This document shows positions 713 through 29,503 of a stretch of 64,000 nucleotides of DNA, piece by piece. Within the stretch, counting starts at the first letter, position 1; each line of letters begins with the position of its first letter. This DNA comes from Enterococcus wangshanyuanii (lineage in GTDB: Bacteria > Bacillota > Bacilli > Lactobacillales > Enterococcaceae). The stretch covers positions 1 through 64,000 of the forward strand of contig NZ_CP021878.1 of the NCBI RefSeq assembly GCF_002197645.1. Direction: 5' to 3'. Below the pieces are notes generated by a model. That model did no database searches. It was given only the letters and a program-made list of their open reading frames with translations, and was not told the DNA's origin. Both the position numbers and the translations under genes were made by a program.

Positions 713-790
713 TAAATTCCCTCCAGGTTTTGGTATCAATATATTTTATATTGTACCATATGGACTAATTATATTTAAGGATTGGTAGCT

Positions 791-1098: not shown

Positions 1099-1115
1099 TT
1101 TGCCTTCCTTTCATA

Positions 1116-2425: not shown

Positions 2426-2686
2426 GTTCAGTTCCTCCTTCATTATCCTTTGGGGTTTCTTCTAACGCAGGGGGCGTTGATTGATTAGGTGCTAATAATG
2501 ACTTTAAATCTGTTAAAGTCAAATCATTTTCAACTAAAAACGTTGAACAACTTCTGCTTCCAGTTGCTTCAGCTCATTTTCTTTTTTAGTGACGGTTTCT
2601 TGTTGCTTCTTCAATCGTTCTTTTGCTTTTTTCAGGTCATTTTCTAACCGTTTTTGCTTTTTTTCTAACTCTTCAATTCTACTCAT
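2418..2686 (-). pseudogene. Frameshifted copy of prgM-like gene
   Basis: This duplicates 52931-53200 but is one base shorter because an A is missing near 2543. Probably a sequencing error. Confidence 0.8.
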
Positions 2687-3349
2687 GGCTTGATTCCTCC
2701 GTTGTGGCTAGTGTGGTTGAACTTGTCATTGTTGATTGCGTTGGCTCAAAATATTCAGATTCCGTAGTTACATTTGTGTTGTAAGAATTACTGTCTGTAT
2801 TTAATAAATTGGTCAACGTTACAGGTTCCATTTTATCTACCAAGAATTTTTTGCCTTGTTTTGTAAAGGTGACTTGCACAGCTTCTTGATTTGATTGATT
2901 TTTCAGAGCCCCTTCGTTGCTTCCGATTTTCTTTCGTTGGGTATTTTTATAGGTTACAACACATATAGCTGTATCATTTCTGCATTAATGTAAATATCTG
3001 CTGTATCCAGTACTTGATTGACCACATAGCCTTTATACGCTTGATTAACAGGTTGTTCTTCCTCTGTTGTTAATTCGTTATACATAGACGTGGTAACCAG
3101 GGGCTCGTATCGATTGCGATTTTCTCCTAAATCTTTTCTTGTAAAATAGGCAATAAGAAATTTTTGGACTGTATCAGTGGTCAAATCTTTTTTCTTTTCC
3201 ACCACCTCTTGTTTCACGGGCTTTTGAGCCGCTTGTTGTTTGCTTTTACCAACACTAAATCCAACAAAAAAACATAAAAGTACAAGAAAAAACAGGCCGA
3301 GAAACAAGCCTGCTTTCTTCAATTTTCGTATTTTATCATGATTGTACAT
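2679..3349 (-). pseudogene. Frameshifted copy of prgL-like gene
   Basis: This duplicates 53193-53864 but is one base shorter, with a T missing near 2983. The membrane-anchor half and the C-terminal half therefore lie in different frames. Probably a sequencing error. Confidence 0.8.
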
Positions 3350-3371
3350 AAAAATTATTTTCTCCTTTCTC

Positions 3372-5986
3372 TTATTTCACACGCATAAAGTATTCGCCTG
3401 CTTCTTTCTTCAATACACGCCAACTCATGGAGTATTCACCACTCACATTCATTTCAGAGATTACAAACGTTCCATCGCTGTTAACATATTCTACAAATGC
3501 CACATGCCCGTATACAGAACTTTGAACCTGCCACTCCATTCGTAAAGATCACGGCATCTCCTCGTCTCGGTGTTGAAACAAGACTCGCACCTGGCGTTAG
3601 AATATAATTTACTATCCATTGATTCGCATTTCCCATCGTTGGGTGAATCGACTTACCAAGTTGTGCCATTCGATTGTACACGTACCATGTACAATTTCCG
3701 AGTGCATACGCATTACCAGGCCACCCTTGTCCTTGTTTCGTTTCTCTATCCGTAGGTAAAGGTTTCATTTTATCTTTGTATTTTTGGAAGACTTCGCTAC
3801 TTGATCCATTGACTTCATTCCCTGAACTAGACAGGAAGTTAAACCAATTTTGAGCAGCTTGAATCCGTTCACTTGTTTTATCTCCTGGATTTCCTTCCCA
3901 GTTATTCAAGAAATACACTGTTAATTCTGGTACGGTTGCGGCAACTTTGTTTCCTGCTGTATTAGCAGCTATTGTTCGATAGGCAGGAGAATCACCATTA
4001 AAGATAAAGTCTAATTGTAATTGTAGATCATACCATTTTTTCTTTTTACTTTTTGCATAGTCAAGTAACAATGTATGACGTGTACTTCCGTCAGCTGTAT
4101 CTGTCCATTGGCCTAATCCTAACCCTCTATGAAGAATATTAGGGAATTTACCATAGATTTCCGTTCCACCCATTGCTAGCCAAGCAGGATCATCCCATGA
4201 AGTAGCACTCGCTCCTACAGGTGGGTTTAAGTAATCTCCTTCTGCTCGTTTTGGATTGATTCCACTTTCAACGGAAAAGTTCCCTAAGATAGCGGCAATT
4301 CCTTCTTTTTTGTATCCTAATTTTGTTAAGTAGTCATAGACAGCTCGTGCTCGACTCTCTACATCCGCTCCTGGATCAAAGGACGAAGAACCCAATAATG
4401 TTGTTTGCGTATAGGTCACATTGGGAAAATAAAAAGCGGGGTTAACAGAAAACCAAGCCTTTTTCTCTAAATCATATTTTTCATACTGAAGGGTGACCGT
4501 TTCATTTGGACTATTTCCCAAAAAGGTACCGACTTGCACGTCTTCGTTCCCTTTGAATCGACTACTTTTAACGCCTTCAATGGTTAAACGAACACTTTTT
4601 TCTTTTTCTATGACTAAACTTGTTTCATTTGGAATAGTTGTTACCTTTCCTTCAAGTGGGGAATTGAACGCTTTATTAACTTCTGTCATAAGCTCAATTC
4701 CCTGGAACAAACTTTCTTTTCCGTCTTTCTTTTCGTACCCATATCTACGTGAAACAATTAATGAATCTGTTTCAAAGGGAAATGCTAACGGATCATCCAA
4801 TGTAGTATAGCCTAATTCCTTTTTTACTTCCTGATAATGCTCATAGTCTTCGCCTGAAAGAAAATAACGTGACTTGTTGTCTGTTTCAAGTTCTTTTATG
4901 GTCTTTAACTCGTAGTCAGGAGATTTTCCATTCAAATCTTCCCACAGATCACTGAGATAGTTCTCAAAGTTTTTTTCCCAACAATCCAGTGTCCGACAAT
5001 TTATATTCTTCAAAACGATAATTCATATAAAACATGACATCGTCAATGTTGCTGTAGAATTGATTGGTGTCGTCCGTGTGCTCTGCATCTAGTTTCGTCA
5101 TATAAACCCATGAGTCTGTTAAATCTTCATCTTCTTGAACGATCGCAGGTTTCTGTGTTCCTCCTGCAATACCCATCATCATAAAAACAACAACTACAAC
5201 TAATAAGACGATCCAGGTAATTGGGTTTTTAATAAGAATCATCGCTGCTTTTGAAGCCGATTTTTTGCCTGTTAGGACAGAACGAACTAAGCTAAGACCT
5301 TTTTCAGCTTTTTTTGCGGCCTTAGCCGCTTTCATTCGTTGACGGTGATTACGTAATTTGTACATCAATTGTTTTCGTGTCGTAAGATTCTCTGGTGTTC
5401 GGTGGAATCCACGTCCTCTTGAAAAATTGAACGTGCGATTACCTAAACCATAAGCACCTTTTCCTGTTTTTAATGCTACTTTTCCAGTATTTTTACCGAT
5501 TTTGAAACCAACACGAATTTTTTGATTGGCTCGTCGTAGTTTTCGATAAGCTTCTACGCCCTCTTTTAAAGTATCATCTTCACTCAAGACCTTTAATGAT
5601 TGTTGCTTAGTTTCTTCTTTCATAGAAACTTTGGTTTCACTTTTAAGTTGTACAGAAATTCTAGTTGTATCTTTAGCCTTTATTTTTTGATAGACACGTT
5701 TGGCTACTTTTTTACCGTTTTTGTCTTCAATAAATTTTTTCTTTGCAATGATATGATCGATTGAAGGAGCTTGACTGCCCTTTTTCACGTTGATCTTATG
5801 CTTTTTTAATTGACCCTTATACCCTTTTCTAGAAAGTTTATAGTCTTTTTTTGCCTGTTTAAATGCTTTCTTAGATACCTTCGTTGCTTCTCGTGGATTA
5901 CGGAAAGCATTTTTGCTAACGCCATCCTTCACTCTAGGCGCAATTTTTTGGTTTTCTTTCCAAGAAGGCTTCTCTTCTTTCGTCAT
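3372..5986 (-). pseudogene. Frameshifted copy of prgK-like gene
   Basis: This duplicates 53887-56499. Two extra bases, near 3523 and 4975, split it into an N-terminal piece with the membrane anchor, a central lysozyme-like piece and a C-terminal CHAP tail. Both changes are in homopolymers. Confidence 0.85.
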
Positions 5987-5997
5987 AGAATCACTTC

Positions 5998-8380
5998 CTA
6001 AGCATCTGTGTTCATTATTTCAAAGAGTTCTGTATTCTCTGGAATAGGATTTTCAAATGGAACGATCGTTCCATTGGCATAGATCAAACCTGTTCCTTGT
6101 GGTACTTTTTCGCCTACATACTTCAATAATTTAGGTTTCAAATTGACCGCTTCTTTCAGTCTTTGTAAATCTACAGGTTTTTGGCGTAACAGAATCATAA
6201 ATTCACTATTAGATAGCATTTTCATACCAGCTGGACTATCCAACATTGTTGAGATATTTTGAGTGATTCCTGTTGTAACCGCCCCATATTTTCGGATACG
6301 TACCCATAAATTTAAGAACCAACTAGCGGAACTTTCTTCTTCAAAATTCACTTGTAATTCATCAAAATATAGACGAGTAGTAACTTTCCCTTGATTTGCT
6401 ACGACTTGCTTCCAGATCTGATCTAAAATGACTTTCATCGCAAAAGGCTTCATTTTTTCATCTAGTTTCTTGATATTGAACACAACAAACTTGGCATTTA
6501 AATCAATATTTGTTTTATGTGCAAAAAATATCTTGCGAGCCAATACAGTAAGGTTCTACTTTTGTAGCTAATGTTTTCGCTTCTGGTTCTGGTTGCTCTA
6601 GCAAAATATTAAACCACTCTACTAGGGTAGGCGGTTCTTGACTCCCTTCAAATGCTGCATACGTTTTTCTTGTCACACGGTCAACGATCGAGGCATCTTC
6701 ATCTGTATAGGACTTTAATAAGGATTCAAATAGGCCAGATAGTAAATTGGCCTTTTCTTTAACTAAATCGACATTTCGATCTTCTACATCCAATAAACGA
6801 CTGTCAACCATATCTAAAATGTTTAAATGGTGTTGTGTCCCTGTTGAAATATCTAAGATTTCAGCACCAAAAGCTCGAGCAATCGGTATATACTCACTTT
6901 CGGGATCAACAATACGGAATAAATCTTTTGGATAGCGAAGTAAAGCACTGATCATTTCCCACTTAGTAGCCATTCCTTTTCCTGAACCAGAAGTACCAAA
7001 TATCAATCCACTAGGGGTTGGCAAATCTTTTTTACGATCTAAGGTAATGACATTATTCGTTATTTGGTTTCGCCCATAATATTGGCCAGTTGGACTTTGT
7101 AGCTCAACATTGGTAAATGGTACCTGTGAAGCCACATTCGTGCTCGTCATATCACGCATATAATTCATTTCTACATCCAAATACGGTTTACCGATCGGTA
7201 AGATCGTATTCAATGCTTCCTCTTTGTAGTCTTCTACTACCTCAAAATCTACTTGCCATGTATGACCCACATCCTCAACTGCTTTAATGGACTCTTCTAA
7301 CTCAGCTTCTGTTTTCGCAATCAAAAAAGTGGTGAAAATTCCTGAAAACATTTTTTGTCCGTTTTCTTTGATTTCTTCCATTAAGGCTTCCGTTGATTCT
7401 TTAGTGTCCTTCAAGTCACCTGCAATCATATCTTCCCCAACACCTTGCTGAAAATTATCTTTTTGCTGCTTACTAATCGCAACATTATTTAACGTCTGCA
7501 TGGTTTGAATATTTTTCTTTGCTTGGATCATGTCATAAGGCGTGGCATGGATACTGATAGCAAGTTCTGTTCCTATTGCACATAATTCTCGTATCAAACG
7601 ATCTTCTAAGTATTTCGGGTATTGGCGAATATATAGCACAGCAGCATAATATTCGCCTAAGCGCATATACTTTTTGTCTTTCACAAAACGAATTTTCCCA
7701 GGAACGATAAATGCTTTACTATTCAATCCTGATACCGCAATGTCTTGATATGTTGTACTAAAATAAGAACCTGGTCGTAAGAGACCACTCATTACTGACA
7801 GCCGTTCTACACCACTTAGAGGAGTCACAGACAGGTCTACTTCATTTGCTTCAAAACGATTTTTAAAGTTTTTTGCGATTGTTTCAATATTTTTATTCGC
7901 CTGTTTTCTAGACGAACTCTTGGTTGTAAACGTGGCATATTTTTCAATCGTAAAATTTCGTTGATCTTGTTGGAACTGTTTATCAATGATCTCATTCATT
8001 TCTTGGCGATAATTGTCCAACGGATCTGCCGCATAAGGTAATAGAATAGACTCTAATAAAGAGTCGTCGATTCGTTTATTAAGTACCAATAGTTGATATC
8101 TTGAATTTTTATCTAAGGTATTCAGCCCATCTGCATAGCCAACCACGATATCTTCCTGTTCCTGTTCCATCGAGACTTCATAATCAACTTCACCCAATCG
8201 ATAGGTTTTGGAATATTCGCCTTCTACAACGTGCATTAAGCCCTCTTCAAACTGAAGTGTATACTTAATACTGTCTTGCGCTGTTGGATTAGCTTTTTCC
8301 ATCACACGTTGTTTCATTTGCTTTTCTGTTTGTTTAGATCTCATCTGTTTCTTTGATGGTTTCTTTTTGAGTAAATTCAT
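5998..8380 (-). pseudogene. Frameshifted copy of prgJ-like ATPase gene
   Basis: This duplicates 56511-58892. One extra A near 6528 separates the N-terminal two thirds, including Walker A, from the C-terminal third. The other copy reads through in a single frame. Confidence 0.85.
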
Positions 8381-8687
8381 GCTTTCCATATCTCCTTATC
8401 TGTCCTGATCTATAGGTTCGTTCTTCATAATAAAAGTAAAGTTCGAACTTCCGTTTCTTTTCTTTCCACGTATTCAACAATAGAAAAACGGGATAATACC
8501 CTAAAACGATCGCAGTAGGTAGAGAGAAAATTAAAAACGCCCAATCAGGAAGAAAAAATATTTCTACTCCTAATATGAGCGCAGTACCTGCTAATAAGAC
8601 ATAGGCTTTCAGCTGTCGTATACTGATCCCCCATACCTTTCGTTCAATTTTAGACACATCTTTATAAAATTGTGAGCCAATTGCCAT
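8334..8687 (-). CDS. prgI: PrgI-family small conjugation membrane protein
   Basis: This 117-residue protein has two hydrophobic segments near the middle (about residues 25-65) followed by a basic, aromatic C-terminal tail, the layout of the PrgI family. PrgI proteins sit immediately upstream of the VirB4-type ATPase in Gram-positive type IV secretion systems and are thought to be part of the membrane channel. The start is the ATG of the MAIGSQF frame, one base after the prgH stop, so the two are probably translationally coupled. A longer reading from 8732 would overlap prgH. The 3' end overlaps the prgJ start. The copy at 58846-59198 has lost a base near 59003, so this is the good one. Confidence 0.85.
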   Translation of the reverse strand: MAIGSQFYKDVSKIERKVWGISIRQLKAYVLLAGTALILGVEIFFLPDWAFLIFSLPTAIVLGYYPVFLLLNTWKEKKRKFELYFYYEERTYRSGQIRRYGKHEFTQKETIKETDEI

Positions 8688-8688
8688 A

Positions 8689-9489
8689 CTACATCGCCCC
8701 CATAAATCGTTTGGCCATTCCTTGTGAGCCAATCAAAATGATTATAATCGCTACATATTTAAAAATGAGCACTACATAAATCATGATATTGATCATTAAT
8801 GCTCCTGCATTGTCCCAAACTCCACCTTCAAATGAAGCAAAAGACAAATAATCGTTGGCCATTAAAATTGGAATTAAACCAACGATCAAGACTAATAGTG
8901 CACCTTGTAGAACAAGCGCCATGATTTGTTTGATATACCCTACAGCAATTGAGCGAAGCTCATCGTTTACGAAGAAAGCAATCAAGATAGGTGCCATCGC
9001 TTTGACAATATACAGTTGAATCCCTCGTAAAAAAATGAGAATATTCGTGATAAACGAAGATAGAAAAAGTGCAATATAGGCGAACACTTGAAATAAAAGT
9101 ACAAGTGGTTTTGCCCACCAGGATACTTTTCCCATCTGAGGGATTGCATCACTTGTTCCTGTAATAGTCACAACTGAATTGATCCACTTAGCTGCTTGAA
9201 TCCCAAACCATACAATTCCGTCTACGATATAACCCGAAGACATGATCAGCACAAACGCAATGATATATTTCATTGCTAAGTCTGTAAGGACTTCTACACC
9301 CAATCCTCCGTCTTCCATTTTAAATTTCTTTGTTACACTGGTCATTTCCACCATGAAAAGAATGCCTAAAATCGCCAGTCCCAAAGGAATCAAGACTTTC
9401 GCTATCTTTCCCATCACTTCATTTGTCGTTGGATTATATTCTCCTAAACTTTGAAACAGCTGATTGAGGGTGGATTCTGGAATATTCAT
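8689..9489 (-). CDS. prgH: PrgH-like polytopic channel protein (VirB6/TrbL-like)
   Basis: The 266-residue product is very hydrophobic, with about six membrane segments starting near residue 28. A short N-terminal extracytoplasmic or cytoplasmic part is followed by two helices, a WW-containing loop and a cluster of C-terminal helices. Its place between a two-helix small protein (prgF) and prgI matches PrgH of pCF10, the VirB6-like channel subunit of the mating machine. It is identical in both copies, so the reading is secure. Assignment rests on topology and gene order, since VirB6-like proteins have little conserved sequence. Confidence 0.8.
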   Translation of the reverse strand: MNIPESTLNQLFQSLGEYNPTTNEVMGKIAKVLIPLGLAILGILFMVEMTSVTKKFKMEDGGLGVEVLTDLAMKYIIAFVLIMSSGYIVDGIVWFGIQAAKWINSVVTITGTSDAIPQMGKVSWWAKPLVLLFQVFAYIALFLSSFITNILIFLRGIQLYIVKAMAPILIAFFVNDELRSIAVGYIKQIMALVLQGALLVLIVGLIPILMANDYLSFASFEGGVWDNAGALMINIMIYVVLIFKYVAIIIILIGSQGMAKRFMGAM

Positions 9490-9501
9490 TCTTTTCCCTC
9501 C

Positions 9502-9729
9502 TTAGAATTTGATTGAACTAAGCTGAGCAATTACGTATGCACCTACGCCTGTTGCAATCAAGGCAAATGCCCCACCAACAATAATTGCCTCAATCCCTTT
9601 ATCTGTTTTTCTTGGATCATCCGTCTGCATTCCTGAACGAACATCCTTTACTCCTAACATAATGCCGACAGCTGCTAAAACACCGATGATCGCTCCGATG
9701 ATTGTGACAATTTTTGTAACGATATCCAT
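9502..9729 (-). CDS. prgF: PrgF-like small two-helix membrane protein
   Basis: This 75-residue protein has two hydrophobic helices (about residues 5-27 and 48-70) separated by a charged loop containing VRSGMQTDDPRKTDKG. That is the size and topology of the small subunits that precede VirB6-like genes in Gram-positive conjugation operons. By position it corresponds to pCF10 PrgF. A pilin-like (VirB2-type) role is possible but not shown by the sequence. It lies 12 bases before prgH and is intact in both copies. Confidence 0.7.
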   Translation of the reverse strand: MDIVTKIVTIIGAIIGVLAAVGIMLGVKDVRSGMQTDDPRKTDKGIEAIIVGGAFALIATGVGAYVIAQLSSIKF

Positions 9730-9760
9730 TTCTATTTCCTCTTTTCTACTTATTTTTTAG

Positions 9761-10216
9761 TTATTGCCATTCTGAAGAGTGAAAATTATCCTCTTGTCCA
9801 AATCCGTCAAATCCTGATTCTTCTTCGCTGTTTTCAAACTCTTCTAGTGTTAAAAATTCTTTTATTTGTACTTGTGGCTGTCCCTGATATGACCCTTCTT
9901 CTACTCGAATGTAAACGTCTTTTCTTGTGAGAAATTTCAACGTATCTGGATTATATCCAAAGGTCAAATCTGGAATCTCAACACCGTTGTCTTCAATGCT
10001 CGCAAGAAGAAAATTCATATTGTCTTGTGTGAAATCATTTCCGAACGTTAAAAAGAAACGACCCTGTTCTTCATTTTTCCCTTCAAGAAATAGAATAAAC
10101 ATATCGCTTCCGCTTTTTGCTTGTTTGTTCTGTACTTTTGTAATCGTTGCTGCATGCGTTCCTACTGTAAACTGTTTAAATCCGTTTCTACGCTCTGTTG
10201 GTCTTTGATATTTCAT
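9761..10216 (-). CDS. prgE: PrgE-like single-stranded DNA-binding OB-fold protein
   Basis: The 151-residue product has a compact folded part of about 125 residues and an acidic, phenylalanine-rich tail (ESGFDGFGQEDNF). This layout recalls ssDNA-binding proteins with an OB fold and an acidic C-terminal tip. Position at the head of the secretion genes matches pCF10 PrgE, which is reported to bind ssDNA. The sequence begins MKYQRPTERRNGFKQF and contains a characteristic FLTFGNDFTQDN segment. It is preceded by a good Shine-Dalgarno site (AAAGGAGAG) and is identical in both copies. Confidence 0.75.
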   Translation of the reverse strand: MKYQRPTERRNGFKQFTVGTHAATITKVQNKQAKSGSDMFILFLEGKNEEQGRFFLTFGNDFTQDNMNFLLASIEDNGVEIPDLTFGYNPDTLKFLTRKDVYIRVEEGSYQGQPQVQIKEFLTLEEFENSEEESGFDGFGQEDNFHSSEWQ

Positions 10217-10308
10217 TGGTTTTCTCTCCTTTAAAACGATTTTTTATAACAAAAAAAGCACCTATTCAGATAGACATAAGTACCATAGCTTCACGACTAA
10301 AATTCTGA

Positions 10309-10620
10309 TTAATTCAATGATAAGTCGCTATTAGGAATCATCACTGCAATATACTCTGTTGTTTTTTCATTGTAGTAACAGTAATAATCAGGTGCTAAAC
10401 AAATATTCTCTAAGTGAACTACCTCACCATTCAAGATTTCATTTTCCAATTGTCTCAGATCACTGTTATCAAAAAAGTCTTCATTCAAAGATAAATACTT
10501 TTTTCTCACTTCATCATATACAGCTTCAGGAAATTCACTTTTAAAAAATGGCCATTGAGTATGATCAAATTCTGTTACATATCTTGCAATTTCAACAGTT
10601 GCTGAAGTAACCTTTTCCAT
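10309..10620 (-). CDS. Unknown 103-residue acidic protein
   Basis: I do not recognise this protein. It is soluble-looking and acidic, with no signal peptide or membrane segment. Aromatic residues cluster in the C-terminal half (APDYYCYYNEKTTEYIAVM). A Shine-Dalgarno site (AAAGGAG) precedes the ATG. It sits between prgE and a small broken gene inside the conjugation operon. The second copy (60821-61132) encodes the same protein, so the frame is reliable. Confidence 0.6.
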   Translation of the reverse strand: MEKVTSATVEIARYVTEFDHTQWPFFKSEFPEAVYDEVRKKYLSLNEDFFDNSDLRQLENEILNGEVVHLENICLAPDYYCYYNEKTTEYIAVMIPNSDLSLN

Positions 10621-10650
10621 TGTTTTCTCCTTTCATGATTAAAAAAATGA

Positions 10651-10797
10651 TTAAATAGTAATTTCACCTTTTTCAATTCGTTCTAATAACAACTTTAGCG
10701 GCTCCTGTTTACCACGACCTTTTTCTCCTAACAGAACGACACTTGGGAGTGGTTCTCTTGAGCAGTCTTTACAGTTTTTTTACTTTCTTTTAATCAT
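10651..10797 (-). pseudogene. Small paralogue of the 50-residue gene, with in-frame stop
   Basis: A ribosome-binding site (AGGAG) and ATG start a 49-codon frame that reads MIKRK, hits TAA, then continues in the same frame to end in LLLERIEKGEITI. The downstream part parallels the gene at 11467-11619 (VLLGEKGRGKQEPLK against VLFGSRGVGRQEAFK). Both copies carry the same TAA and the same seven-T run, so this is not an obvious sequencing error. It may be a decayed duplicate, or translation may start elsewhere. Confidence 0.55.
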
Positions 10798-10857
10798 GTC
10801 ATCTCCTCTTTCCACAAACACAAAATGAATGAAATATAAAATTATTTTTGTTTTATA

Positions 10858-10866
10858 TGATATAAT
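10858..10866 (+). promoter_or_regulatory. Extended -10 promoter for the plus-strand gene
   Basis: TGaTATAAT forms a perfect extended -10 about 30 bases before the ATG at 10896. No convincing -35 lies upstream, as expected for extended -10 promoters. It drives a gene running against the surrounding operon. Confidence 0.6.
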
Positions 10867-10895
10867 TGTCTGACAAAAACAAAGGAGAGACTTGT

Positions 10896-11474
10896 ATGAC
10901 TTTAACTTTGAGTATGATTAGAAAATTAATGAAGACACATTCATATTTACCCAATCATATTATCCAAAAACATGCAAACAGAATTGCTGAAGTAGTTGAA
11001 AATGAGACTGACTGCCAAGAACAATATGAATACTACAGATTCCCTATTTATATTGGTTACTCTGATCAATTCATATTAGACGCTTATTTGAACATTGATA
11101 AAATCAAAGATTTCTTGACTTCAAATAAGCAGAAACCCAAGAAATTTTTGTTGGAAGAATTTACATTTGGTACACGGCATCAAGAAGTCACTGACGAAAA
11201 TTTGATTGCATGTACTAAAATAGAATTAGATCCTGAACTGTCCGTAAGTTCTGATCCTATAATCATTTTAAGAAAAGACAATTACAGATCGATAATAGAC
11301 GGCAATACAAGGACTTCTTTCGCTAAACAAATATCAAATGACCTTGATATTTTAGGTTACGAGCTTGACTATGAAAACTTAATTACGAATGAACTATATT
11401 TAAATGAATACTCTAAACGGTTACTAGAATTTAATAATGATCTCAATAGATTCTATAAAAATACTATTAAATAG
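10896..11474 (+). CDS. Unknown protein with ParB-like DGNTR motif, opposite to operon
   Basis: This 192-residue protein is the only plus-strand gene inside the conjugation operon. The ATG was chosen because AAAGGAGAG lies seven bases upstream; a TTG at 10866 would overlap the promoter. Near residue 135 it has SIIDGNTRTSFAKQ, which resembles the DGN(H/R)R signature of ParB/sulfiredoxin-fold proteins. The DGNHR protein at 50306 carries a related motif. Function is unknown. It converges on, and overlaps by eight bases, the 50-residue minus-strand gene at 11467. The second copy is frameshifted. Confidence 0.65.
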   Translation: MTLTLSMIRKLMKTHSYLPNHIIQKHANRIAEVVENETDCQEQYEYYRFPIYIGYSDQFILDAYLNIDKIKDFLTSNKQKPKKFLLEEFTFGTRHQEVTDENLIACTKIELDPELSVSSDPIIILRKDNYRSIIDGNTRTSFAKQISNDLDILGYELDYENLITNELYLNEYSKRLLEFNNDLNRFYKNTIK

Positions 11475-11619
11475 TGATCTCGCCTCGTTCAATTCGTTGA
11501 AGTAAAGATTTAAAAGCCTCTTGCCGTCCTACGCCCCTTGATCCAAATAAAACCGGACATTTGAAATACTTCCCTTGTTCGGTTTGTACTATTTTCTTTG
11601 ATCCCTTTTTTTTACTCAC
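11467..11619 (-). CDS. Small basic 50-residue protein, GTG start
   Basis: The frame starts at GTG, overlapping the stop of the 77-residue gene by eight bases (GTGAGTAA), so translational coupling is likely. It is rich in lysine and arginine and ends QRIERGEITI. The core CPVLFGSRGVGRQEAFKSLL is repeated, diverged, in the broken frame at 10651-10797, which supports it being a real gene. I do not recognise the family. The copy near 61980-62127 is corrupted. Confidence 0.55.
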   Translation of the reverse strand: MSKKKGSKKIVQTEQGKYFKCPVLFGSRGVGRQEAFKSLLQRIERGEITI

Positions 11620-11845
11620 TTAAATGCCTCCCTACTTTGATTGTGCTAATTTCTTCATTTAATAGTTCCATTGCACGTCTAACAACAAAACCAAATGAAT
11701 TGTTTTTAGGCATTAGTTCAAGGTTTCTCCGAATTTCTCCATATGTCCCTGTCTCTTTTTTCAGTTCCTTCAGTAATTCATTCGCTTGATTTTCAATAAA
11801 GTCATCACAGATAATCATTTTTTTGATTACTTTTTCTCTTTCCAT
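11612..11845 (-). CDS. Unknown 77-residue protein
   Basis: A small charged protein beginning MEREKVIKKMIICDDF, with a helical, leucine-rich middle (ANELLKELKKETG) and RRAMELLNEEIS towards the end. No membrane segment. It may be DNA- or protein-binding, but no family is recognised. It is preceded by AAAGAAGG and followed by an overlapping gene. The second copy is damaged near 62200 and 62236. Confidence 0.55.
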   Translation of the reverse strand: MEREKVIKKMIICDDFIENQANELLKELKKETGTYGEIRRNLELMPKNNSFGFVVRRAMELLNEEISTIKVGRHLSE

Positions 11846-11893
11846 TTTAAAAGCCTTCTTTCTTTGTGTATTAACTTAACTCTTTGTGACTCC

Positions 11894-12232
11894 TTATCGT
11901 AAGTGCCAATTCTGCATTTTTGATCTAGACAATCTAACATTATTTGGAATAGAAAAGCGTAATCGTGCTTTATTTTTACCACAATATCGCCAACTACCTT
12001 TTGTAATCGGAATTTTTATTGTTTTTCTATTGTGAACCAACAAAATCGCACTGTATTCCTGCCATTGTTTTAATTCCAACAAATTGTTTTCTCTTAGTTC
12101 GATTACTTTATTTGCATTGATTGTTAACTGTTTTAGGATTTTTTGTTGATTGCTGCGTTGATAAACAAAATCAACGTCTGATTCCTTCAACGCTAAGTGA
12201 CGTGCTTGTTCCTTAAAAATACTCGTTCCCAT
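11894..12232 (-). CDS. PrgU-like small protein next to the adhesin gene
   Basis: The 112-residue protein starts MGTSIFKEQARHLALKESD and lies directly downstream of the LPxTG adhesin gene. pCF10 PrgU, a PUA-fold protein of about 118 residues that limits toxicity of adhesin overproduction, occupies the same place, so a similar role is inferred. The C-terminus is uncertain: this copy ends RSKMQNWHLR, while the other copy, with two homopolymer differences, reads a 119-residue form ending TIRSHKELS. One of these frames must be a sequencing error. A strong AGGAGGTGAATAG-type binding site precedes the ATG. Confidence 0.6.
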   Translation of the reverse strand: MGTSIFKEQARHLALKESDVDFVYQRSNQQKILKQLTINANKVIELRENNLLELKQWQEYSAILLVHNRKTIKIPITKGSWRYCGKNKARLRFSIPNNVRLSRSKMQNWHLR

Positions 12233-12253
12233 CTATTCACCTCCTCGAATTTA

Positions 12254-12280
12254 AAAGAAAAACCGTTCATTAGAACGGTT
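12254..12280 (-). terminator. Hairpin with U-tract at the adhesin stop codon
   Basis: AACCGTTC and GAACGGTT pair around a four-base loop and are followed on the minus strand by TTTTTCTTTT. The stem includes the adhesin stop codon. It may partly terminate transcription before the PrgU-like gene and so lower downstream expression relative to the adhesin. Confidence 0.65.
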
Positions 12281-15200
12281 CTTCATCGTTTACGATTTGT
12301 TTGTTTCTTTTTGATCGAACTGTGAAAAAAATAATGCTGCTCAGAGTAATGATCCATCCAAGTAATTTAACAAAAATACTTGTTGGACTGTCACCAGTAT
12401 GTGGAAGTACCTTTTCAGCAACTTTTTCTACTGGTGATTTTGGCTCTTCTTTTTTCGGATCGGCAGCTTTCGGAACTTTATTGACACGTTTTTCTGTTTC
12501 ATGGTGTTCTTCTGTTCCGTCTGAATCTTGCCATTGTTGATCGGCGGTATTAATGATATCTATTCCTGCTTTCACATCTTTTTTCACGGTCATTGGCGCA
12601 TCGATTTTATAAAATTGTCCGAACGGAATTTTTTCAGTATCGACGATAGAAACCTCTTCGCCTTTAGAATTCTTTGCTTTTTTGAAGACATTCGCTGAAA
12701 TCGTCAAAGTGCCTTTTCCATCGTCTTCAATTTTGAAGTATTTTGTGAAATCTGTTCCTTTTGCATCATATACTTTCAACTGGTCTTTATTGACCGTTAC
12801 GGAAGCCGCATCGTATTTATCAACCATACGCAAATAAGTTAATTCGCTTGTTTCGTCAAATGGTCTTGTATCCAACCACAATTGATAATACAGCGTTTGA
12901 CCTGCTTTTACATCCGTTGTATTGATATTTTCTTTTTCGTTATTATCTGTTTTATCGTTGTAAGGATCTTTGTTAGAATCCGCATAACGGTCTTTCATTT
13001 CGCTGTCATCGTCTAAAAGCTTGTCTCCTGTTAAATCAAACTTTTCTTTTGATAAATCGAACTTATGCGGTTCAGGTTTCGGCGTTTTTGTGTACACTTC
13101 GTTAGAATCCTGCTTCACATCATTGATTGTCTCTACAAACGTATTTAGAACCTTGTCAGAGTCTTTAAAGCGATAGAATGAAGCGTGAATAGTAAATCCG
13201 ACCTCTTTGTCTTTATGCTTGTTTACAACGTCTAAGAACGCTTTTTGAGCAGTAAATAAGACCTTGCCTTTCTTATCTTCAGCTTTGACGAAATCTTGTG
13301 GCAATTCGTCTCCTGCTTTGTAAGAATCAAAGTCTTTGGTTGCATATAATTTGAATGTTCCGTTGTAGCGATCAAAATTTTCGTCATAATCGTCATTGAT
13401 CGTCCAGCTGGTTGTATCTTGACGATTTAGTTGTAAAACACTTGAATTTAACACGTAAAAGAAGTCAGAGTTTAAAGCAACGTCACCTTCATTGATTGAT
13501 TCCCCACCGTCAGTTTTAGTCACATCTTTTGTTGGTGGTGTCGGTGGTGTTGGAACGTCTGGCGTATCAGGATTATTGTTAAAGTGTAATGTAGATAAAC
13601 TAATCGTTGGTTTTTCAGTTGTTACGCTGCCAACAGTTCCCTTGCTATTTGGGTTCTTTTCTGTACTGCTGTCTTGTAGGGCAAATTTACGTGTAGAGTA
13701 CGGATTAGAGAAATCTTTATTGTAGCTTGCACTGATTGTTAAAATATCTTTTTCTTGATCTGTTTCCATATGAATATAGATTGGTCTGATTTTTTTACGA
13801 CCTTCAGGTTCACTTTTCTCTTCTAATACCCAATCGCCATAAACTAAGTTCCCTAATGCATAACCATCGTCCCCTGTCACTGGATCAACTCCAGTAACCA
13901 TAGTGACTGGTTCAGCAATCGTTCCTTCTAACGGATTAGCGATAAATTCAATATCGTTAAAGCCAGAAGAACCTTCATTCTCAGGCAATGTAAACATTTT
14001 ACTGATCTTGATTGCTGCTTCGATCGCACGGTTTTTACTGTTTGTATCCGTTGTTACTGTAACCAACGTTTGATCGTCTTGTTTCGTAATTTCAAACGTA
14101 TGCTTGATCGCATCAGTGACATATCCTTCACCTGCATCAACTTCATACCAATAAAATTTACCTAACGGTAAGTTTCCAACCGCAGCTGTTAATTTTTCGT
14201 CGTCTACATCGATTACGACTTGATCACCGAAATCAACTTTATTTCCACCAATCACAGCACTAGTGACTTTTTCTCCTGCTAATAGCTCAGGATTAGGTAT
14301 ATCCGACCACTTAACTGGATCACCTTGTTTGTGTTTACTTGATCCTGTTGAATCATCATCATAAAACAGTTGGAATTTTGCTGTTTTTAAAACAGCTTTC
14401 CCATTTTGGTCAAGCCCAGTGTCTACATCTTCTTTTTGTAGCAAGTTTTGCCCTTTGATCTCTTGGTTCGTTCCTTTTGCTTCACCAAAAACAACTTCTG
14501 TATTTTGGTCTTTATAGGTCAGCTTAACCGTTTGTGGTTTAAAAGTGTTCGCAAAACCAGCTGAAGAACTGATTTCAGTGATCGTGTACTCACCTAGAGG
14601 AAGATCCTTCTTGATTGCTGTTCCTGTTTCATCTGTTGTAATGGTATATGTTTTTCCATCTGTTACAGATTTCAGCTCAAATTTATTGCCTTTCAAATTG
14701 TATTTTTCATTCCACATGTCAGCACCCGATTCTACGCCTGTTTTCTTAATGGTAATTTGTCCAGTAACGGCGATATTTTCAAGTTTCACAGGCGTGGTTT
14801 TTCCTGCTTGGACTTTAATTGTCGTATCAGGACGTACCGTTTGACCACTACTTGCCCAATTAGAGGATTTTTCTTTCAATGTATATTCCCCAACAGGCAA
14901 ATACTTAGATTTTCCATTGCCGTTTTTATCTAATTTAATCGTATCAACAACTTTTCCTTGTTTGTTATACACGTCAAATGATAACGTGTCGAACGAATAG
15001 AATTTATTCCAATTATCTTTCCCATATTGAAGCGTTGACTTATCAATAGATAGATAACCACCGACTTGCCAACTCGGAATCACACCGAAAATACCTGTCA
15101 CAATATCCGCATGGTTATTTAAACCATCTGTATATTTATAGCCGACAGTATTTTTGTTCCAACGTTTCAATACTAAATAAGAATTAGGGGAGAGCTGTGT

Positions 15201-22043: not shown

Positions 22044-22532
22044 TTAAGTTTGTTGCAGTTGCTTTTTTTCTTGTCGCAATCGTTCCTTTTCGTCCTCCTC
22101 TTTTTTGGCTTTCTCTATTCGTTGCTGCGCTCGTCTTTTTACAACATCTGGTTGGTTGTCTTCATCCATCAGCTGATAAACAGCTTTTGCTAATCGAGCT
22201 CCCTGAATCACTTCGCCCATTCCCTTACCTGTTTTTCTTAAAGGCAGTAATCTTTTTTGGTTACTTTTATAGTTTCCTGCTCTTCTGGCGATCAACACTC
22301 CTTTATTTTTTTGAGAGTAGACACGTTCAATCTCATTATAGATATCCATGATCTCAACTTGATTGGATTCAATAATGTGTCGGCAACCCTCTATGTATTC
22401 AATAGCTTGTTGGAACACTCTATTGTCTTGAATAATAAATTCTCTTTTTCCTCGCCCTTTCCCTTTTTGAAAAAGAACTATTCTTTTTCCGTATTTCAAC
22501 ACTTCTTCTGGTGTCATATTCGTTGTTGGCAT
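22044..22532 (-). CDS. First protein gene of the transfer operon, basic unknown protein
   Basis: 162 residues from an ATG with GGAG eight bases upstream (MPTTNMTPEEVLKYGKR). The C-terminal third is a highly charged helix (RAQQRIEKAKKEEDEKERLRQEKKQ, interrupted by few hydrophobics). No membrane segment. It is the first gene after the terminator at 22591, so it should be expressed only when transcription reads through. Family not recognised; nucleic-acid binding is plausible from its charge. Confidence 0.55.
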   Translation of the reverse strand: MPTTNMTPEEVLKYGKRIVLFQKGKGRGKREFIIQDNRVFQQAIEYIEGCRHIIESNQVEIMDIYNEIERVYSQKNKGVLIARRAGNYKSNQKRLLPLRKTGKGMGEVIQGARLAKAVYQLMDEDNQPDVVKRRAQQRIEKAKKEEDEKERLRQEKKQLQQT

Positions 22533-22590
22533 AGCTGTTTCTCCTTTCTTGAATGAATTTCTTAATAGATTTGACAGGTTAGCGGAAAAC

Positions 22591-22635
22591 AAAAAAAGAG
22601 GGGGAGAATACGCTGAACTGCGTACTCTCCCCCTC
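22591..22635 (-). terminator. Strong attenuator-type terminator before the transfer operon
   Basis: A 16-base stem (starting GAGGGGGAG, with one mismatch) and a six-base loop are followed on the minus strand by seven T. It lies 59 bases before the ATG of the first operon gene and 420 bases after the peptide gene. This is the position of the IRS1 terminator in the pCF10 prgQ leader. Confidence 0.85.
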
Positions 22636-22759
22636 CTGAAATAGCTATTTACTACGTTTAAACTACAACGATTCCAAGAAAAAAGGATTTTATCAGGTCT
22701 CTAGGGGAGTTGATAATATCATGAGTATTGAATTAATACTGTATTTTTCCTTTGAAAAT

Positions 22760-22768
22760 TGTTATAAT
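22760..22768 (+). promoter_or_regulatory. Extended -10 promoter of the antisense RNA
   Basis: TGtTATAAT is a perfect extended -10. Transcription should begin near 22775, where a GTTGTAGC-AACA-GCTACAAC hairpin starts. Confidence 0.65.
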
Positions 22769-22774
22769 ACAAAC

Positions 22775-22887
22775 GTTGTAGCAACAGCTACAACAAAAGG
22801 AGCCGAGACCGTTCAAGCCTGCTAAAGCTTATTGAACTGTCGTATCTTCCTCTAGGGTTGGTAGCCCTATGGAGACGGTTCTTTTTT
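22775..22887 (+). ncRNA. Candidate antisense RNA opposite the leader (Anti-Q-like)
   Basis: About 113 nt. It has a perfect 8-bp 5' hairpin, a 10-bp hairpin (GACCGTTCAA with TTGAACTGTC, one mismatch), a small TAGGG/CCCTA hairpin, and an outer helix pairing AAAAGGAGCCG with CGGTTCTTTTTT. It ends in a U-tract, so it has its own terminator. It lies between the peptide gene and the attenuator, as Anti-Q does in pCF10, and is expected to base-pair with the leader and favour termination. No homology was tested; the call rests on structure and position. Confidence 0.65.
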
Positions 22888-22902
22888 GTTTTCCGCTAAC
22901 CT

Positions 22903-23056
22903 CTCACTCCTAACCCTTATTAGATATTAGGAACAAGACAATTAGCATTTTTTATTTTCAATGTCTATTTAATCTTTTTATCATAATTCATTACGCTTAG
23001 AAGATACCACAGACAAATTGATAATACAAGTCATTTTGTAAAACAGGTTTTTCAAA
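22903..23056. other. Leader region without a gene
   Basis: This AT-rich stretch between the peptide gene and the antisense RNA has no start codon with a good binding site. It is probably untranslated leader of the minus-strand transcript. Confidence 0.5.
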
Positions 23057-23140
23057 TTAACCTAAAAGGTTTGGGAAAATTGGAGCCATTGTAAGAACAC
23101 AAATGATTACAGTACCTAAAATATTCTTATGTTTTTTCAT
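23057..23140 (-). CDS. 27-residue hydrophobic peptide, candidate signalling peptide
   Basis: A perfect AAGGAGG site seven bases upstream starts a 27-codon frame: basic N-terminus MKKHKN, a hydrophobic core (ILGTVIICVLTMA) and the C-terminus PIFPNLLG. The size and shape match precursors of enterococcal inhibitor peptides (PrgQ/iCF10 type) and streptococcal SHP pheromones, where the C-terminal 7-9 residues are the signal. It lies just after a PrgX-like regulator and at the head of the transfer leader, as prgQ does. Unlike known inhibitors, the C-terminus has two prolines. It could also be a small toxin, but there is no direct antisense partner over it. Confidence 0.65.
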   Translation of the reverse strand: MKKHKNILGTVIICVLTMAPIFPNLLG

Positions 23141-23160
23141 TATTTTGTCCTCCTTCCTTG

Positions 23161-23189
23161 CTTATAAAGTAATTATATATGACTTTCAA
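23161..23189 (-). promoter_or_regulatory. Promoter of the peptide and transfer leader transcript
   Basis: TTGAAA and TATAAG are separated by 17 bases on the minus strand. The start would lie near 23154, giving a short leader with the AAGGAGG site. A TATAAT inside the spacer is an alternative -10. Confidence 0.55.
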
Positions 23190-23214
23190 TAAGAAAAACA
23201 GAATATTTTTACGA

Positions 23215-23234
23215 GGTTGGCAGATTTGACAACC
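23215..23234. promoter_or_regulatory. Palindromic operator candidate 1
   Basis: GGTTGGCAGATTTGACAACC, 26 bases upstream of the -35. It shares GGTTG…CAAC(C/T) with a second palindrome whose centre is 74 bases away, seven helical turns. Confidence 0.6.
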
Positions 23235-23288
23235 TTTTTGGCATTTATTTTTCAAACACCCCCTAAAATGTAAGAAATATTCCTATTT

Positions 23289-23308
23289 GGTTGTCTGAAA
23301 TGACAACT
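23289..23308. promoter_or_regulatory. Palindromic operator candidate 2
   Basis: GGTTGTCTGAAATGACAACT has arms GTTGTC and GACAAC and overlaps the stop codon of the PrgX-like gene. With operator 1 it suggests looping by a regulator tetramer. Confidence 0.6.
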
Positions 23309-24239
23309 AGTTTTTGCCTATTAAAATATCATATTGAGAAAATCCTTGGTTTTTTTTGCCGTCCACGAGATTCTGAACCTCTTTATCCATCAAAGCTGCC
23401 GAACCTTCATCACCTATCAAATCGATAGCATTGATCACCGCAGTAACTTTTTTAAATCCTTCAGTATCATTCTTGACTATATATAAATAAAGATTGTGCA
23501 AATAAGTAAATTGGGCTAAATAGTAATAACTATCTGCATACAAGAATTTGTGCTTTTCAGCAACTTTTAACAGCTCTTTAACTTTCTTGTATTCTTTGTT
23601 GAAAAACAGTGGTGTGATTGAATTCAATAAAATATTACACAGGTGACGTTTAATTTCTGACGATAGTATTCTATGAGGATCAATCGGAAAAATCACTGAG
23701 GTTACTTTCATGATCTCGTCTGGCTGAAGGTCATTAACAACTTGAGCTATGAGTTTGTAATCTTCCTCAAAAATGACTTTTTGATTTATTCTGTAAAATC
23801 TTTCCAAAATGAAACGCTGTTCTTTTGGTGTAATTGGGGCGATTTTATAAGGATATTTTTTGTGAAAATTAGCTTTAATATCGAAATAAACAGTCATTTC
23901 ATCTATTTCCAGTTTAGGAAACTGATTTGAAAGAAAGTTGTAAAGTGTAAATATTTCTTTCAGAGCTTTTTTAGAAGGAAGTTCAGCTATTAAAGTTTGA
24001 TATTGTCTTCGTGTGGTCTTCTCTAGGTTAGGTTCTAGGTACATTGCCATAAAGTCACTAAACGAAACTTTCAAATTTGATAAGATTTTCAGTAAACTGT
24101 TGAAATCTATCGTTTTATGTCCGTTTTCAAACTTTGAATAAGCCGCTTTATCTAACACATCTTCTCTAGCATCAGCTTGTGTCAGCCCAGTATCTTGTCT
24201 AACTTGTTTAACAAGACGGCTTAATACTTTTTTATCCAA
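23307..24239 (-). CDS. PrgX/Rgg-like peptide-responsive regulator
   Basis: A 310-residue protein, close to PrgX (about 317). The N-terminus is a Cro-type helix-turn-helix (LVKQVRQDTGLTQADAREDV, then AAYSKFENGHKTIDFNSLLKIL), followed by an all-helical region with tetratricopeptide-like repeats (for example HKFLYADSYYYLAQFTYLHN), as in RRNPP regulators that bind exported and re-imported peptides. The start is TTG with AAGGAG seven bases upstream. Inferred role: control of the peptide/transfer promoter 100 bases downstream through the two palindromes. In pCF10 prgX is divergent from prgQ, while here both point the same way. Confidence 0.8.
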   Translation of the reverse strand: MDKKVLSRLVKQVRQDTGLTQADAREDVLDKAAYSKFENGHKTIDFNSLLKILSNLKVSFSDFMAMYLEPNLEKTTRRQYQTLIAELPSKKALKEIFTLYNFLSNQFPKLEIDEMTVYFDIKANFHKKYPYKIAPITPKEQRFILERFYRINQKVIFEEDYKLIAQVVNDLQPDEIMKVTSVIFPIDPHRILSSEIKRHLCNILLNSITPLFFNKEYKKVKELLKVAEKHKFLYADSYYYLAQFTYLHNLYLYIVKNDTEGFKKVTAVINAIDLIGDEGSAALMDKEVQNLVDGKKNQGFSQYDILIGKN

Positions 24240-24450
24240 AATATCACTCCTTTCAAGAATAGAGATAGCTTTTTTAATGACGAATATGTATTTCTATATT
24301 TCAATTATAATATCATATTACGAATATAGCAAGCTTAATTTACGTTATTTTGAAAGTTTTTATATTTTTAATGTAAATGTCATATTTATTTAGCTTATCT
24401 TGTGTTAAAATAAATTACACACACAAATATATGGAAAGGAGTATTTTTCT
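24240..24450. promoter_or_regulatory. Divergent regulatory region between two HTH genes
   Basis: Very AT-rich. ACGAATAT occurs twice (near 24282 and 24316), and a TATAAT for the minus-strand regulator lies near 24305. The plus-strand gene has GGAAAGGAG before its ATG. I cannot place -35 elements with certainty. Confidence 0.45.
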
Positions 24451-25254
24451 ATGTCTATTGGTGCAAATATAAAATATTTGAGAAAACAGCATAAGTTGAA
24501 ACAGGTTGAACTTGCTGAGCTAATGAACGTTAACGGCCCAAACATTTCTAACTGGGAATCAAACCGAATTGAACCTCCATTATCAAAAATGAGGGCTTTG
24601 TCTGACTATTTTAACGTTTCTCTTGATCTATTAGCATACGGAGAGCCGAAAGACTTCAATGTGCAAAATTACTACGGTATTAAAGACTATGGAATAGAAG
24701 CTCGAAAAGTCTTTCAATCTCTCGATTCTGAGGAACAGGACAAACTACTACGATCCATGTATGAAGCTAGAATTCAACACAACCGTAAAAATCGCAGAGA
24801 AACAGCTTTTACTCAGCAACAACAGGCGGCCACTTTACTATTTAGCGAAAATATTGTTTTAAAAGAGTTCGGAAAATACATTCAACGCTACTTAGAAACC
24901 TATGACGAAATACATGATCCAGTAACAAGACAATTACTGATCGATACAACCATGTATCTCTCTGAAGGAAAAGAGCAATCGAACGATTTTGTAACGCTAC
25001 TTAGAGACATTACAGAGAAAATCTTTGCTGTAAGTGCTTTGCAGTTTGCTTATGATAAAGACAATTTAACGATTGAAAAAATGAGTAAACAATTTCGGCT
25101 TGATCCTGATTTTATAGAATATGCATTAAAATATTATGCAGATACTAAAGGGGCTATATTTGAATACAAGAATTTGATTATAAATTTATCCGCCTTGATC
25201 ATAGCTGACGAAGAATCCATAAAAAACACGAAAATAAGCATACTCCCAAAATAA
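24451..25254 (+). CDS. XRE-family transcriptional regulator (267 residues)
   Basis: A standard N-terminal helix-turn-helix: IKYLRKQHKLKQVELAELMNVNG, then SNWESNRIEPPLSKMRALSDYFNVSLDLLAYG. This is followed by about 200 residues of helical sequence without a recognised enzyme motif. It is divergent from the PrgX-like gene and ends at a plus-strand terminator, so it is a single-gene unit. It might repress the shared intergenic region. Good GGAAAGGAG binding site. Confidence 0.75.
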   Translation: MSIGANIKYLRKQHKLKQVELAELMNVNGPNISNWESNRIEPPLSKMRALSDYFNVSLDLLAYGEPKDFNVQNYYGIKDYGIEARKVFQSLDSEEQDKLLRSMYEARIQHNRKNRRETAFTQQQQAATLLFSENIVLKEFGKYIQRYLETYDEIHDPVTRQLLIDTTMYLSEGKEQSNDFVTLLRDITEKIFAVSALQFAYDKDNLTIEKMSKQFRLDPDFIEYALKYYADTKGAIFEYKNLIINLSALIIADEESIKNTKISILPK

Positions 25255-26759: not shown

Positions 26760-27027
26760 AAATGATTTTATTTATAAAAATCAACTTTAGTTTACCTTAG
26801 TTTTATCTTAGTTGCAAACGTTGATATATAAAGGTTTGTCACCATTTCACAATATTATAATATTAAATAATTACAATACTATGATACTACAATATTGTAG
26901 TATTGTAAAGTTGATATAAAGAACAGCTACATTACAATATTTTGTACAAAAAAAAGAACTATAATATTGTAATATAATAGTTCTTTAGTATTGTAGTACG
27001 ACGATACTGTAGTACTGTAATGTACTG
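26760..27027. repeat. AT-rich repeat array between rep and parB (candidate parS)
   Basis: About 170 bases of TACTACAATA/TATTGTAGTA-type units, including a perfect TACTACAATATTGTAGTA palindrome near 26884-26901. The same unit fills the region upstream of parA. pAD1-type plasmids use TAGTA-containing repeats as partition sites, so this is probably a centromere and could also be the rep promoter region. Confidence 0.65.
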
Positions 27028-28201: not shown

Positions 28202-28229
28202 ATTATATCACAGTATCACAATATTGCAA
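28202..28229 (-). promoter_or_regulatory. par operon promoter embedded in repeats
   Basis: TTGCAA and TATAAT are separated by 16 bases, with TG one base before the -10. The -35 and spacer lie in the repeat array, so the ParB-like protein probably represses it. Confidence 0.65.
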
Positions 28230-28520
28230 TACTGTAGTACTATAATACTTAAATATGATAGTACTAAAATATAGTAATACTACAAAATCGTAGTATTGTA
28301 ATATGTTGACGTGAGTATATTGCAATAATTAAAAATAGCATTGTAGTACTATTGTATTGTAGTATTGTAATACAATAGTACTGTAATACTACAATATCGA
28401 AGTATTGTTATTTGAAGAATCCGTATAATCTGATTTCAGTTTTACAAAAACAGAATAGGAAAACAATAGAGAACTATTAATTCAAATTTACAGTATTACA
28501 GTATCGTGATACTACAATAC
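28208..28520. repeat. AT-rich repeat array upstream of parA
   Basis: Over ten units of the TA(C/T)TGTAGTA / TACTACAATA type in both orientations, interrupted near 28410-28490. No gene fits. Likely partition site and par operator. Confidence 0.7.
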
Positions 28521-28552
28521 TGTAAAATTAGGTTTAAGTTTTTAAGCAAAGT

Positions 28553-29083: not shown

Positions 29084-29218
29084 TGCTATAATGAAAAAAA
29101 GAGAAAGACATGCGCTAACATATCTTTCTCCAGTAGAACCGTTTAAGACGGCAGCATAATTTTAAATCATGTAAAAATGATCGCTAACTTGCCAAAGTTA
29201 ATGAGCGGTCATTTTTTT
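29084..29218 (+). ncRNA. Antitoxin antisense RNA of a type I module
   Basis: TGcTATAAT (29084-29092) is an extended -10. The RNA from about 29099 has a GAGAAAGA…TCTTTCTC hairpin, a CCGTTTAAGACGG hairpin and a terminator stem AATGATCGCTAAC…GTTAATGAGCGGTCATT followed by nine T. Its 3' end overlaps the end of the toxin gene on the other strand, the usual design of txpA/ratA-like modules. Confidence 0.75.
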
Positions 29219-29352
29219 TTGTCATTTCTAAGCATATCTACAATCAATTTAATCAAAGCAATAGTAAACATACCAAAGCTTAGGATCAATTGAATTGTTT
29301 CTAATGCGGACAAAAGGCTTCTCCTTTCAATAGATTCAGTACACACAATCAT
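29209..29352 (-). CDS. Holin-like type I toxin (Hol_Tox family)
   Basis: A one-helix peptide containing SALETIQLILSFGMFTIAL, then a charged end (DMLRNDKKK), as in putative holin-like toxins. Two starts are possible in one frame: ATG at 29352 with AGGAGG (47 residues) or TTG at 29313 with AGGAG (34 residues). The stop codon lies in the terminator shared with the antisense RNA. An extended -10 (TGaTATACT, near 29413-29421) lies upstream. It would insert in the membrane and kill plasmid-free cells when the unstable RNA is lost. Confidence 0.75.
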   Translation of the reverse strand: MIVCTESIERRSLLSALETIQLILSFGMFTIALIKLIVDMLRNDKKK

Positions 29353-29503
29353 ATGCACCACCTCCTAAAGAGCGCCACCGTCATAACTTTTCTACATTGA
29401 TTAGTATATCACACTTGATATTTTTCTTTTTACTTTTTTCTAAAGACTAATCAATTTTAAATCTCATGCACGCAGTCGCCTATCCTTTTGATTAGTATTT
29501 GAT

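Follow-up and report, generated by a model that had tools for sequence, protein, structure and literature searches.

Pheromone plasmids serve as the textbook example of gene transfer under peptide control, and publications on them, in the portions available, describe a divergent layout of regulator and peptide genes. In pCF10, prgX is divergent from prgQ and lies on the strand of the antisense RNA Anti-Q, and a single promoter yields both Anti-Q and prgX according to the accessible parts of PMC7117660 and PMC6540685. In pTEF1 (pAD1 type, with TraA and iAD1) and pAM373 (iAM373), which likewise combine a regulator, a peptide and a leader, regulator and peptide are again divergent, and in all three plasmids the inhibitor gene lies between the regulator and the leader. 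We take the pAM373 regulator, annotated as hypothetical, to be TraA; a 107-aa piece of it had no match in Pfam. Here we analysed a 64,000-nt stretch from Enterococcus wangshanyuanii (contig NZ_CP021878.1, positions 1 to 64,000; hereafter the window), which represents a circular plasmid of ~50.5 kb covered 1.27 times, bases 1-13495 repeating 50520-64000 at 99.6% identity, in a genome of 4.16 Mb and five contigs. The window probably carries a pheromone-type conjugation switch in which, by contrast with these three plasmids, the genes for an RRNPP-type regulator and a peptide precursor share one orientation and lead into the transfer operon, the peptide gene lying, as the inhibitor genes do, between regulator and leader.

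The predicted regulator gene (23307..24239, minus strand) starts with TTG behind the Shine-Dalgarno (SD) sequence AAAGGAG at 24253-24247 and encodes 310 aa. Its product (P0002) matched Rgg_C (PF21259) with 33 bits against a curated cut-off of 27, matched HTH_3 in Pfam as well, and scored 26.9 bits against NCBIfam TIGR01716, under the cut-off of 36.9. Among solved structures, PrgX was the closest by sequence (residues 8-284, E 9e-8; 6e-14 in a profile search). A Foldseek search with a regulator model of predicted local distance difference test (pLDDT) 76 and predicted template-modelling score (pTM) 0.55 returned PrgX at all of ranks 1-22, and in VIA-align the same model, at that confidence, left PrgX tied with Rgg2 and Rgg144. 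Judged by its sequence, the protein is a peptide-sensing member of the RRNPP type and of PrgX size, as an earlier, sequence-only reading of this DNA had proposed; all the parts which that reading named are present at the places it gave. TraA of pTEF1 is only 26% identical to the regulator over 156 aa. A promoter-like site for the regulator, TTGCTA-17-TATAAT (24304..24332, minus strand), is a consensus match alone (10/12), and such sites were no commoner than chance in a scan of the region (10 sites, against 8.9 in shuffles).

The peptide gene (23057..23140, minus strand) encodes a hydrophobic precursor of 27 aa, MKKHKNILGTVIICVLTMAPIFPNLLG, behind the SD sequence AAGGAGG at 23155-23149, a 7-nt match. 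On both strands of the 50.5-kb plasmid it is the sole mini open reading frame (ORF) with an ATG start, 15-40 aa, an SD match of 7 or more and a grand average of hydropathy (GRAVY) of 0.8 or more. The PrgQ precursor of pCF10 ends three residues past TL, whereas the window peptide continues for nine residues past the corresponding TM. In the Rgg/short hydrophobic peptide (SHP) systems of streptococci, SHP peptides end in Gly-Gly; by contrast, the window peptide ends in NLLG, and the predicted output of the locus is conjugation. A tblastn search of plasmids with the window peptide gave no match.

The same-direction unit recurs elsewhere. With the regulator as tblastn query, 12 Enterococcus plasmid records were matched at a coverage of at least 80% and 33-46% identity (EFD32pB, pEfVSI48_1, pGTC2, pGTC3, pEK4L, pEFS108_4 and others), and a thirteenth plasmid match, from Carnobacterium, was partial (58% coverage) and excluded from the counts, leaving the window and 12 plasmids as the loci read. 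The regulator is 310 aa long in all 13, and in 12 of them a peptide gene with an SD sequence lies 3' of it in the same direction, starting 160-172 nt past the first base of the regulator stop codon; the remaining locus, L048, holds IS256 where the peptide gene would be. The peptides read MQKLKKYMPVVTICVITLSAIMPTITQSF in L047, MKKMQKYASIATLCVVTLSIMSSVIA in L002, L007, L046 and L075, MKFRVAKILGSVAVCILTLSAVVPG[IL]M in L003, L004 and L049-L051, and MKNVAKVLSSLAVCILVLSLV in L052, a weaker case with a GTG start and 21 aa. A core C[VI]x[TV][LM][SA] is common to all peptides of the same-direction loci, and their C-termini are divergent. Between L003 and L004, the seven nucleotide differences within the peptide gene amount to four silent codons, one stop-to-stop change and one I-to-L change (2 nt), while the flanks are 82% identical upstream and 52% identical over 200 nt downstream; searched against plasmids by tblastn, the L003 peptide matched five Enterococcus records and, by chance, one from Rhizobium. 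A TraC-type frame, none of which occurs in the window, stands beside the regulator in 9 of the 12 relatives (six annotated, three found as ORFs); in L051 it is split in two frames, and L047 and L048 have none. These two regulators sit on 25-27-kb plasmids with DUF961 genes, L047 also having an FtsK-type gene.

Tree building placed 13 such regulators (that of the window, those of seven plasmid loci and five from a protein search whose layout was not seen) in one group with support of 100/100, its position relative to PrgX and other regulators being weak. The window regulator is 85% identical to another copy, and a close second copy was found in none of 22 genus and 105 family genomes, where the next best match had 26% identity (E 2.5e-20). 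One scan of genome contigs gave no close relative and another gave four remote matches, 25-45% identical over parts, and a scan of viral contigs gave none. We conclude from these alignments that the regulator-peptide unit is conserved. An open-access literature search found no report of the same-direction class in the titles and abstracts it returned; the accessible text of PMC4374294 and PMC11695379 uses the name EFD32pB to label an assembly or a replicon, and the RRNPP surveys PMC9765709 and PMC10075063, available in part, could contain these pairs in their supplements. The unit is, in predicted layout, a conserved form of the enterococcal pheromone switch for which the literature searched gave no description.

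The leader 3' of the peptide gene ties the unit to the pheromone plasmids. It contains two hairpins, one of them a clear terminator; the second leader terminator (22596..22637, minus strand) is IRS2-like. On the opposite strand, the whole Anti-Q model (RF00388, positions 1-103) matched at 22775..22881 (plus strand; 41.2 bits, E 8e-5), antisense to the leader, and is preceded by an antisense-promoter extended -10 element, TGTTATAAT (22760..22768, plus strand); TGnTATAAT occurs in 15 of 15 leaders, the pattern used to find leaders having itself required part of it. Rfam also recognizes Anti-Q in the leaders of pCF10 and pAM373 and in five of seven loci searched (L003, under the cut-off, and L006, L054, L058 and L061). 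The window leader is thus, by its predicted elements, a pCF10-type Q leader with an Anti-Q sequence on the opposite strand, and the same plan extends to the two operator-like sites in helical phase and to the transfer operon with an adhesin downstream. The placement of the peptide gene at the head of a transfer leader, as the sequence-only reading had it, is borne out by this leader and the TraE-like gene that follows. Three features go beyond that reading: the Anti-Q RNA, a regulator set off the Anti-Q strand, and the recurrence of the layout on 11 of the 12 other plasmids.

A long-range complement spans the leader: 25 nt located 5' of the first hairpin (22882..22906, minus strand) are complementary to the U-run and tail of the second (22572..22596, minus strand), the 3' arm beginning in the U-run of the second terminator. 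The leader pattern was found in 15 of 24 loci, the other nine being left out of the helix count, and the complement was present in all 15 (scores of 44-54; the highest score in 60 shuffles of each was 31). Counted over 13 distinct leaders, pairing holds in 255 of 273 cells, and five columns change on both sides, compared with 0 or 1 when the arms are slid by 1-5. The complement may reflect either an RNA helix formed by the read-through transcript or a terminator tail common to both strands. A similar complement was seen by eye in pAM373, and parts of the leader (64% of it at most) match 48 Enterococcus plasmid records.

The strand of the regulator relative to Anti-Q sets this locus apart. The regulator lies on the Anti-Q strand in pCF10, pAM373, L054, L058 and L061, and also at four other Anti-Q places found in the search of 105 family genomes, two of which are other contigs of the genome that carries the window plasmid. 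By contrast, in the window and in L003 the regulator is on the strand opposite Anti-Q (in the window, regulator and peptide on the minus strand and Anti-Q on the plus strand); L006 is mixed, with two regulators of which just one is on the Anti-Q strand. Because the regulator is off the Anti-Q strand, the brake RNA and the regulator could therefore be set independently, unlike in pCF10, and the same-direction layout offers a natural test of whether Anti-Q/regulator coupling matters. A strong U-run after Anti-Q, considered as a mark of a regulator located elsewhere, was dropped, since a classical copy in the same genome has a strong U-run too.

Between regulator and peptide gene lie two dyads, which the sequence-only reading had described as 20-bp palindromes. 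O1 (23289..23308) overlaps the regulator stop codon, with 6-bp arms GTTGTC/GACAAC around a 6-nt centre, and O2 (23215..23234) is imperfect, with 8 of 10 pairs; the 74-bp spacing of their centres is as that reading gave it, whereas neither is perfect as a 20-mer, O1 falling under 7 of 10 pairs. Pairs as alike as O1 and O2 and within 120 bp of each other numbered three in the plasmid, and one arose in 2 of 5000 dinucleotide shuffles of 23141-23330, which makes the O1/O2 pair unlikely by chance under a criterion chosen after the sites had been seen; with three mismatches allowed, the dyad patterns were no commoner than in shuffles. The best-placed promoter-like site for the peptide (23161..23189, minus strand) has a -35 TTGAAA at 23189-23184 and a -10 TATAAG at 23166-23161; an alternative uses TATAAT at 23177-23172 with a poor -35, and a third, weaker candidate, TTGTCA-16-AAAAAT (23232-23205, minus strand), has its -35 inside O2. 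Upstream of the -35 box, O2 ends at a distance of 25 bp in the TTGAAA candidate and 14 bp in the TATAAT alternative. With O2 thus upstream of both of these better-placed candidates, O1 and O2 could serve either a looping repressor or an activator. A -10-like box precedes the peptide start by 20-31 nt in 10 of 10 other loci tested, where the -35 boxes match at only 2-4 of 6 positions.

Taking these features together, we propose that the regulator would be transcribed from its own promoter and that two dimers of it would occupy O1 and O2, setting the activity of the peptide promoter. After export, the peptide would be trimmed to a short C-terminal piece and re-imported by the oligopeptide importer of the host, and the trimmed form, bound by the regulator, would be the plasmid's own signal. 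Transcripts from the peptide promoter would then face the leader terminators, with Anti-Q favouring termination. If the peptide is a signal, we favour on balance an inhibitor-like self-signal that is displaced by a related peptide from the recipient, and a self-inducer in its place seems rather unlikely.

Several observations weigh against a switch of this kind. The regulator had no match to PrgX_C_TPR (PF22459) at E up to 0.1, a model on which PrgX scores 100.5, L058 191.7 and L070 103.1 bits, so that PrgX as a family label is not supported, though TraA of pTEF1 is likewise unmatched. The Anti-Q match of the window is under the curated Rfam cut-off (41.2 versus 45 bits), and none was found by Rfam in the relatives L002, L004 and L047 at E up to 0.05. 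GTTGTC-type dyads were absent from the seven other loci scanned. In pCF10, according to the available part of PMC5552905, the operator sites have a spacing of 91 bp and one of them, XBS2, overlaps the promoter, whereas the O2 centre falls at roughly -60 to -70 relative to the start sites of the two better-placed candidates and O2 overlaps the weak third candidate only, so repression through a covered promoter, as at XBS2, finds no support from the better-placed two. tblastn with five queries (E up to 0.01) found no homologue of PrgZ/TraC or PrgY/TraB in the window, unlike in pCF10, where PrgZ and PrgY are present. Two patterns for a lipoprotein signal-peptide precursor gave eight matches in the plasmid's own genome, none of them a signal peptide, so the chromosomal precursor that the sequence-only reading had suggested looking for was not recovered there with these patterns. 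As the plasmid lacks a PrgZ/TraC or PrgY/TraB homologue, import would rest on the host.

Part of this evidence would fit a different circuit, in which an Rgg-type activator lets the plasmid's own peptide turn transfer on at high donor density, no chromosomal pheromone being involved. The dyads lie upstream of the two better-placed promoter candidates, a position suiting an activator, the -35 boxes of the relatives are poor, and neither a PrgY-type gene nor a matching lipoprotein was found. The Rgg_C match, tried as the sign of an activator, was weakened and counts little, even beside the unmatched PrgX_C_TPR, because Rgg_C is not exclusive: PrgX itself scores 37.6 bits. Against self-induction, the solved structure nearest in sequence is that of the repressor PrgX, a TraC-type pheromone-binder frame stands next door in 9 of the 13 loci, and the leader belongs to a system whose plasmid peptide is an inhibitor, as described in the accessible parts of the papers on it; we therefore regard this circuit as unlikely.

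It is still less probable that the 27-aa frame is a leader peptide or small membrane protein and that the regulator answers another ligand. The frame is hydrophobic and lies just before an attenuator, and export and maturation of the peptide are predicted only; however, its place, SD sequence and C[VI]x[TV][LM][SA] core are conserved beside an RRNPP regulator while the C-termini diverge, and the inhibitor genes of pCF10, pTEF1 and pAM373 occupy the same regulator-leader interval. The missing PrgZ/TraC and PrgY/TraB genes could also mark a decayed unit, a former pheromone module that has lost its pheromone or import partners, but the regulator is intact and has its 85% identical counterpart, the SD sequence, dyads and leader complement are intact as well, and pAM373 is also without PrgY according to the available part of a review, which makes decay highly improbable. 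A pheromone-type switch with regulator and peptide read in the same direction remains our preferred reading, and a conserved second layout of this type would add several new candidate peptide specificities.

Other predicted sensors stand before the same leader. In L006, L055, L056 and L060, the ORF listing places the Q leader behind two helix-turn-helix (HTH) regulators around a 20-aa peptide ending in YGNLPHV (3558-3620, plus strand, in L006); both L006 regulators carry RNPP_C, and the one tested had PlcR as its nearest PDB entry. In L054 and L057, a divergent regulator of 318 aa (without a Pfam match in L054) accompanies the peptide MFGLFITFIKPYVNIIGG; in L061, the peptide MFFIGLINSIKPLIQSVGG goes with an HTH regulator whose Rgg_C match is sub-threshold. 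SHP-like peptides of 18-19 aa ending in GG lie between the divergent regulator and the Q leader in these loci (L054:3659-3715, L057:2277-2333 and L061:3824-3883, all plus strand). L058, from Enterococcus sp. LX10, combines a PrgX-type regulator, TraB and a TraC-type gene with a peptide (4172-4249, plus strand) whose end, LSLVLAG, is close to the pheromone cAD1 as given in the accessible part of PMC7117660. In two other genomes of the genus (L071, G016:C11; L072, G013:C5), Anti-Q and an Rgg_C regulator share a strand, with short SD-preceded frames opposite. L047 is the converse case, a window-type unit without an Anti-Q match; pEFS108_4 gave no Anti-Q match. We tentatively suggest, as a possibility that falls short of being probable, that the Q/Anti-Q leader is a common output stage for interchangeable sensor units (PrgX/TraA plus an inhibitor, the same-direction Rgg-like unit, a divergent regulator plus an SHP-like peptide, or a PlcR-like pair plus a YGNLPHV peptide), and that in the same-direction class the plasmid's own peptide drives the switch, the antisense brake being separate from the regulator.

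On two further contigs (L070, G000:C2; L073, G000:C3), the genome carrying the window plasmid also holds a PrgX-type module of the classical kind, with Anti-Q and a peptide of 25 aa that ends in AFSLTLVA; the two copies could be one element assembled twice. The presence of this module raises the question of cross-talk between the signals.

Downstream of the leader, the first transfer gene (22044..22532, minus strand; ATG at 22532 after AAAGGAG) is TraE_Enteroc-like, with 48.4 bits, under the cut-off of 100. A large adhesin with SspB/antigen I/II domains lies 3' of it on the same strand, and farther round the plasmid are a CHAP/lysozyme protein, a MobA/VirD2-type relaxase and a VirD4-type coupling protein. 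The CHAP/lysozyme protein is broken into shorter frames in one copy of the repeated plasmid ends (1-13495 / 50520-64000). On its other side, the regulator adjoins a divergent Xre-type HTH gene (24451-25254, plus strand), which had no BLAST match to the RRNPP regulators compared. Rfam matches to the RatA antitoxin RNA and rli28 fall on opposite strands at 29089-29418, a possible type I toxin-antitoxin locus, and the ParA gene is flanked on either side by clustered short GTATTGTAGTAT-like palindromic repeats (26844-27015 and 28213-28528), perhaps a partition site.

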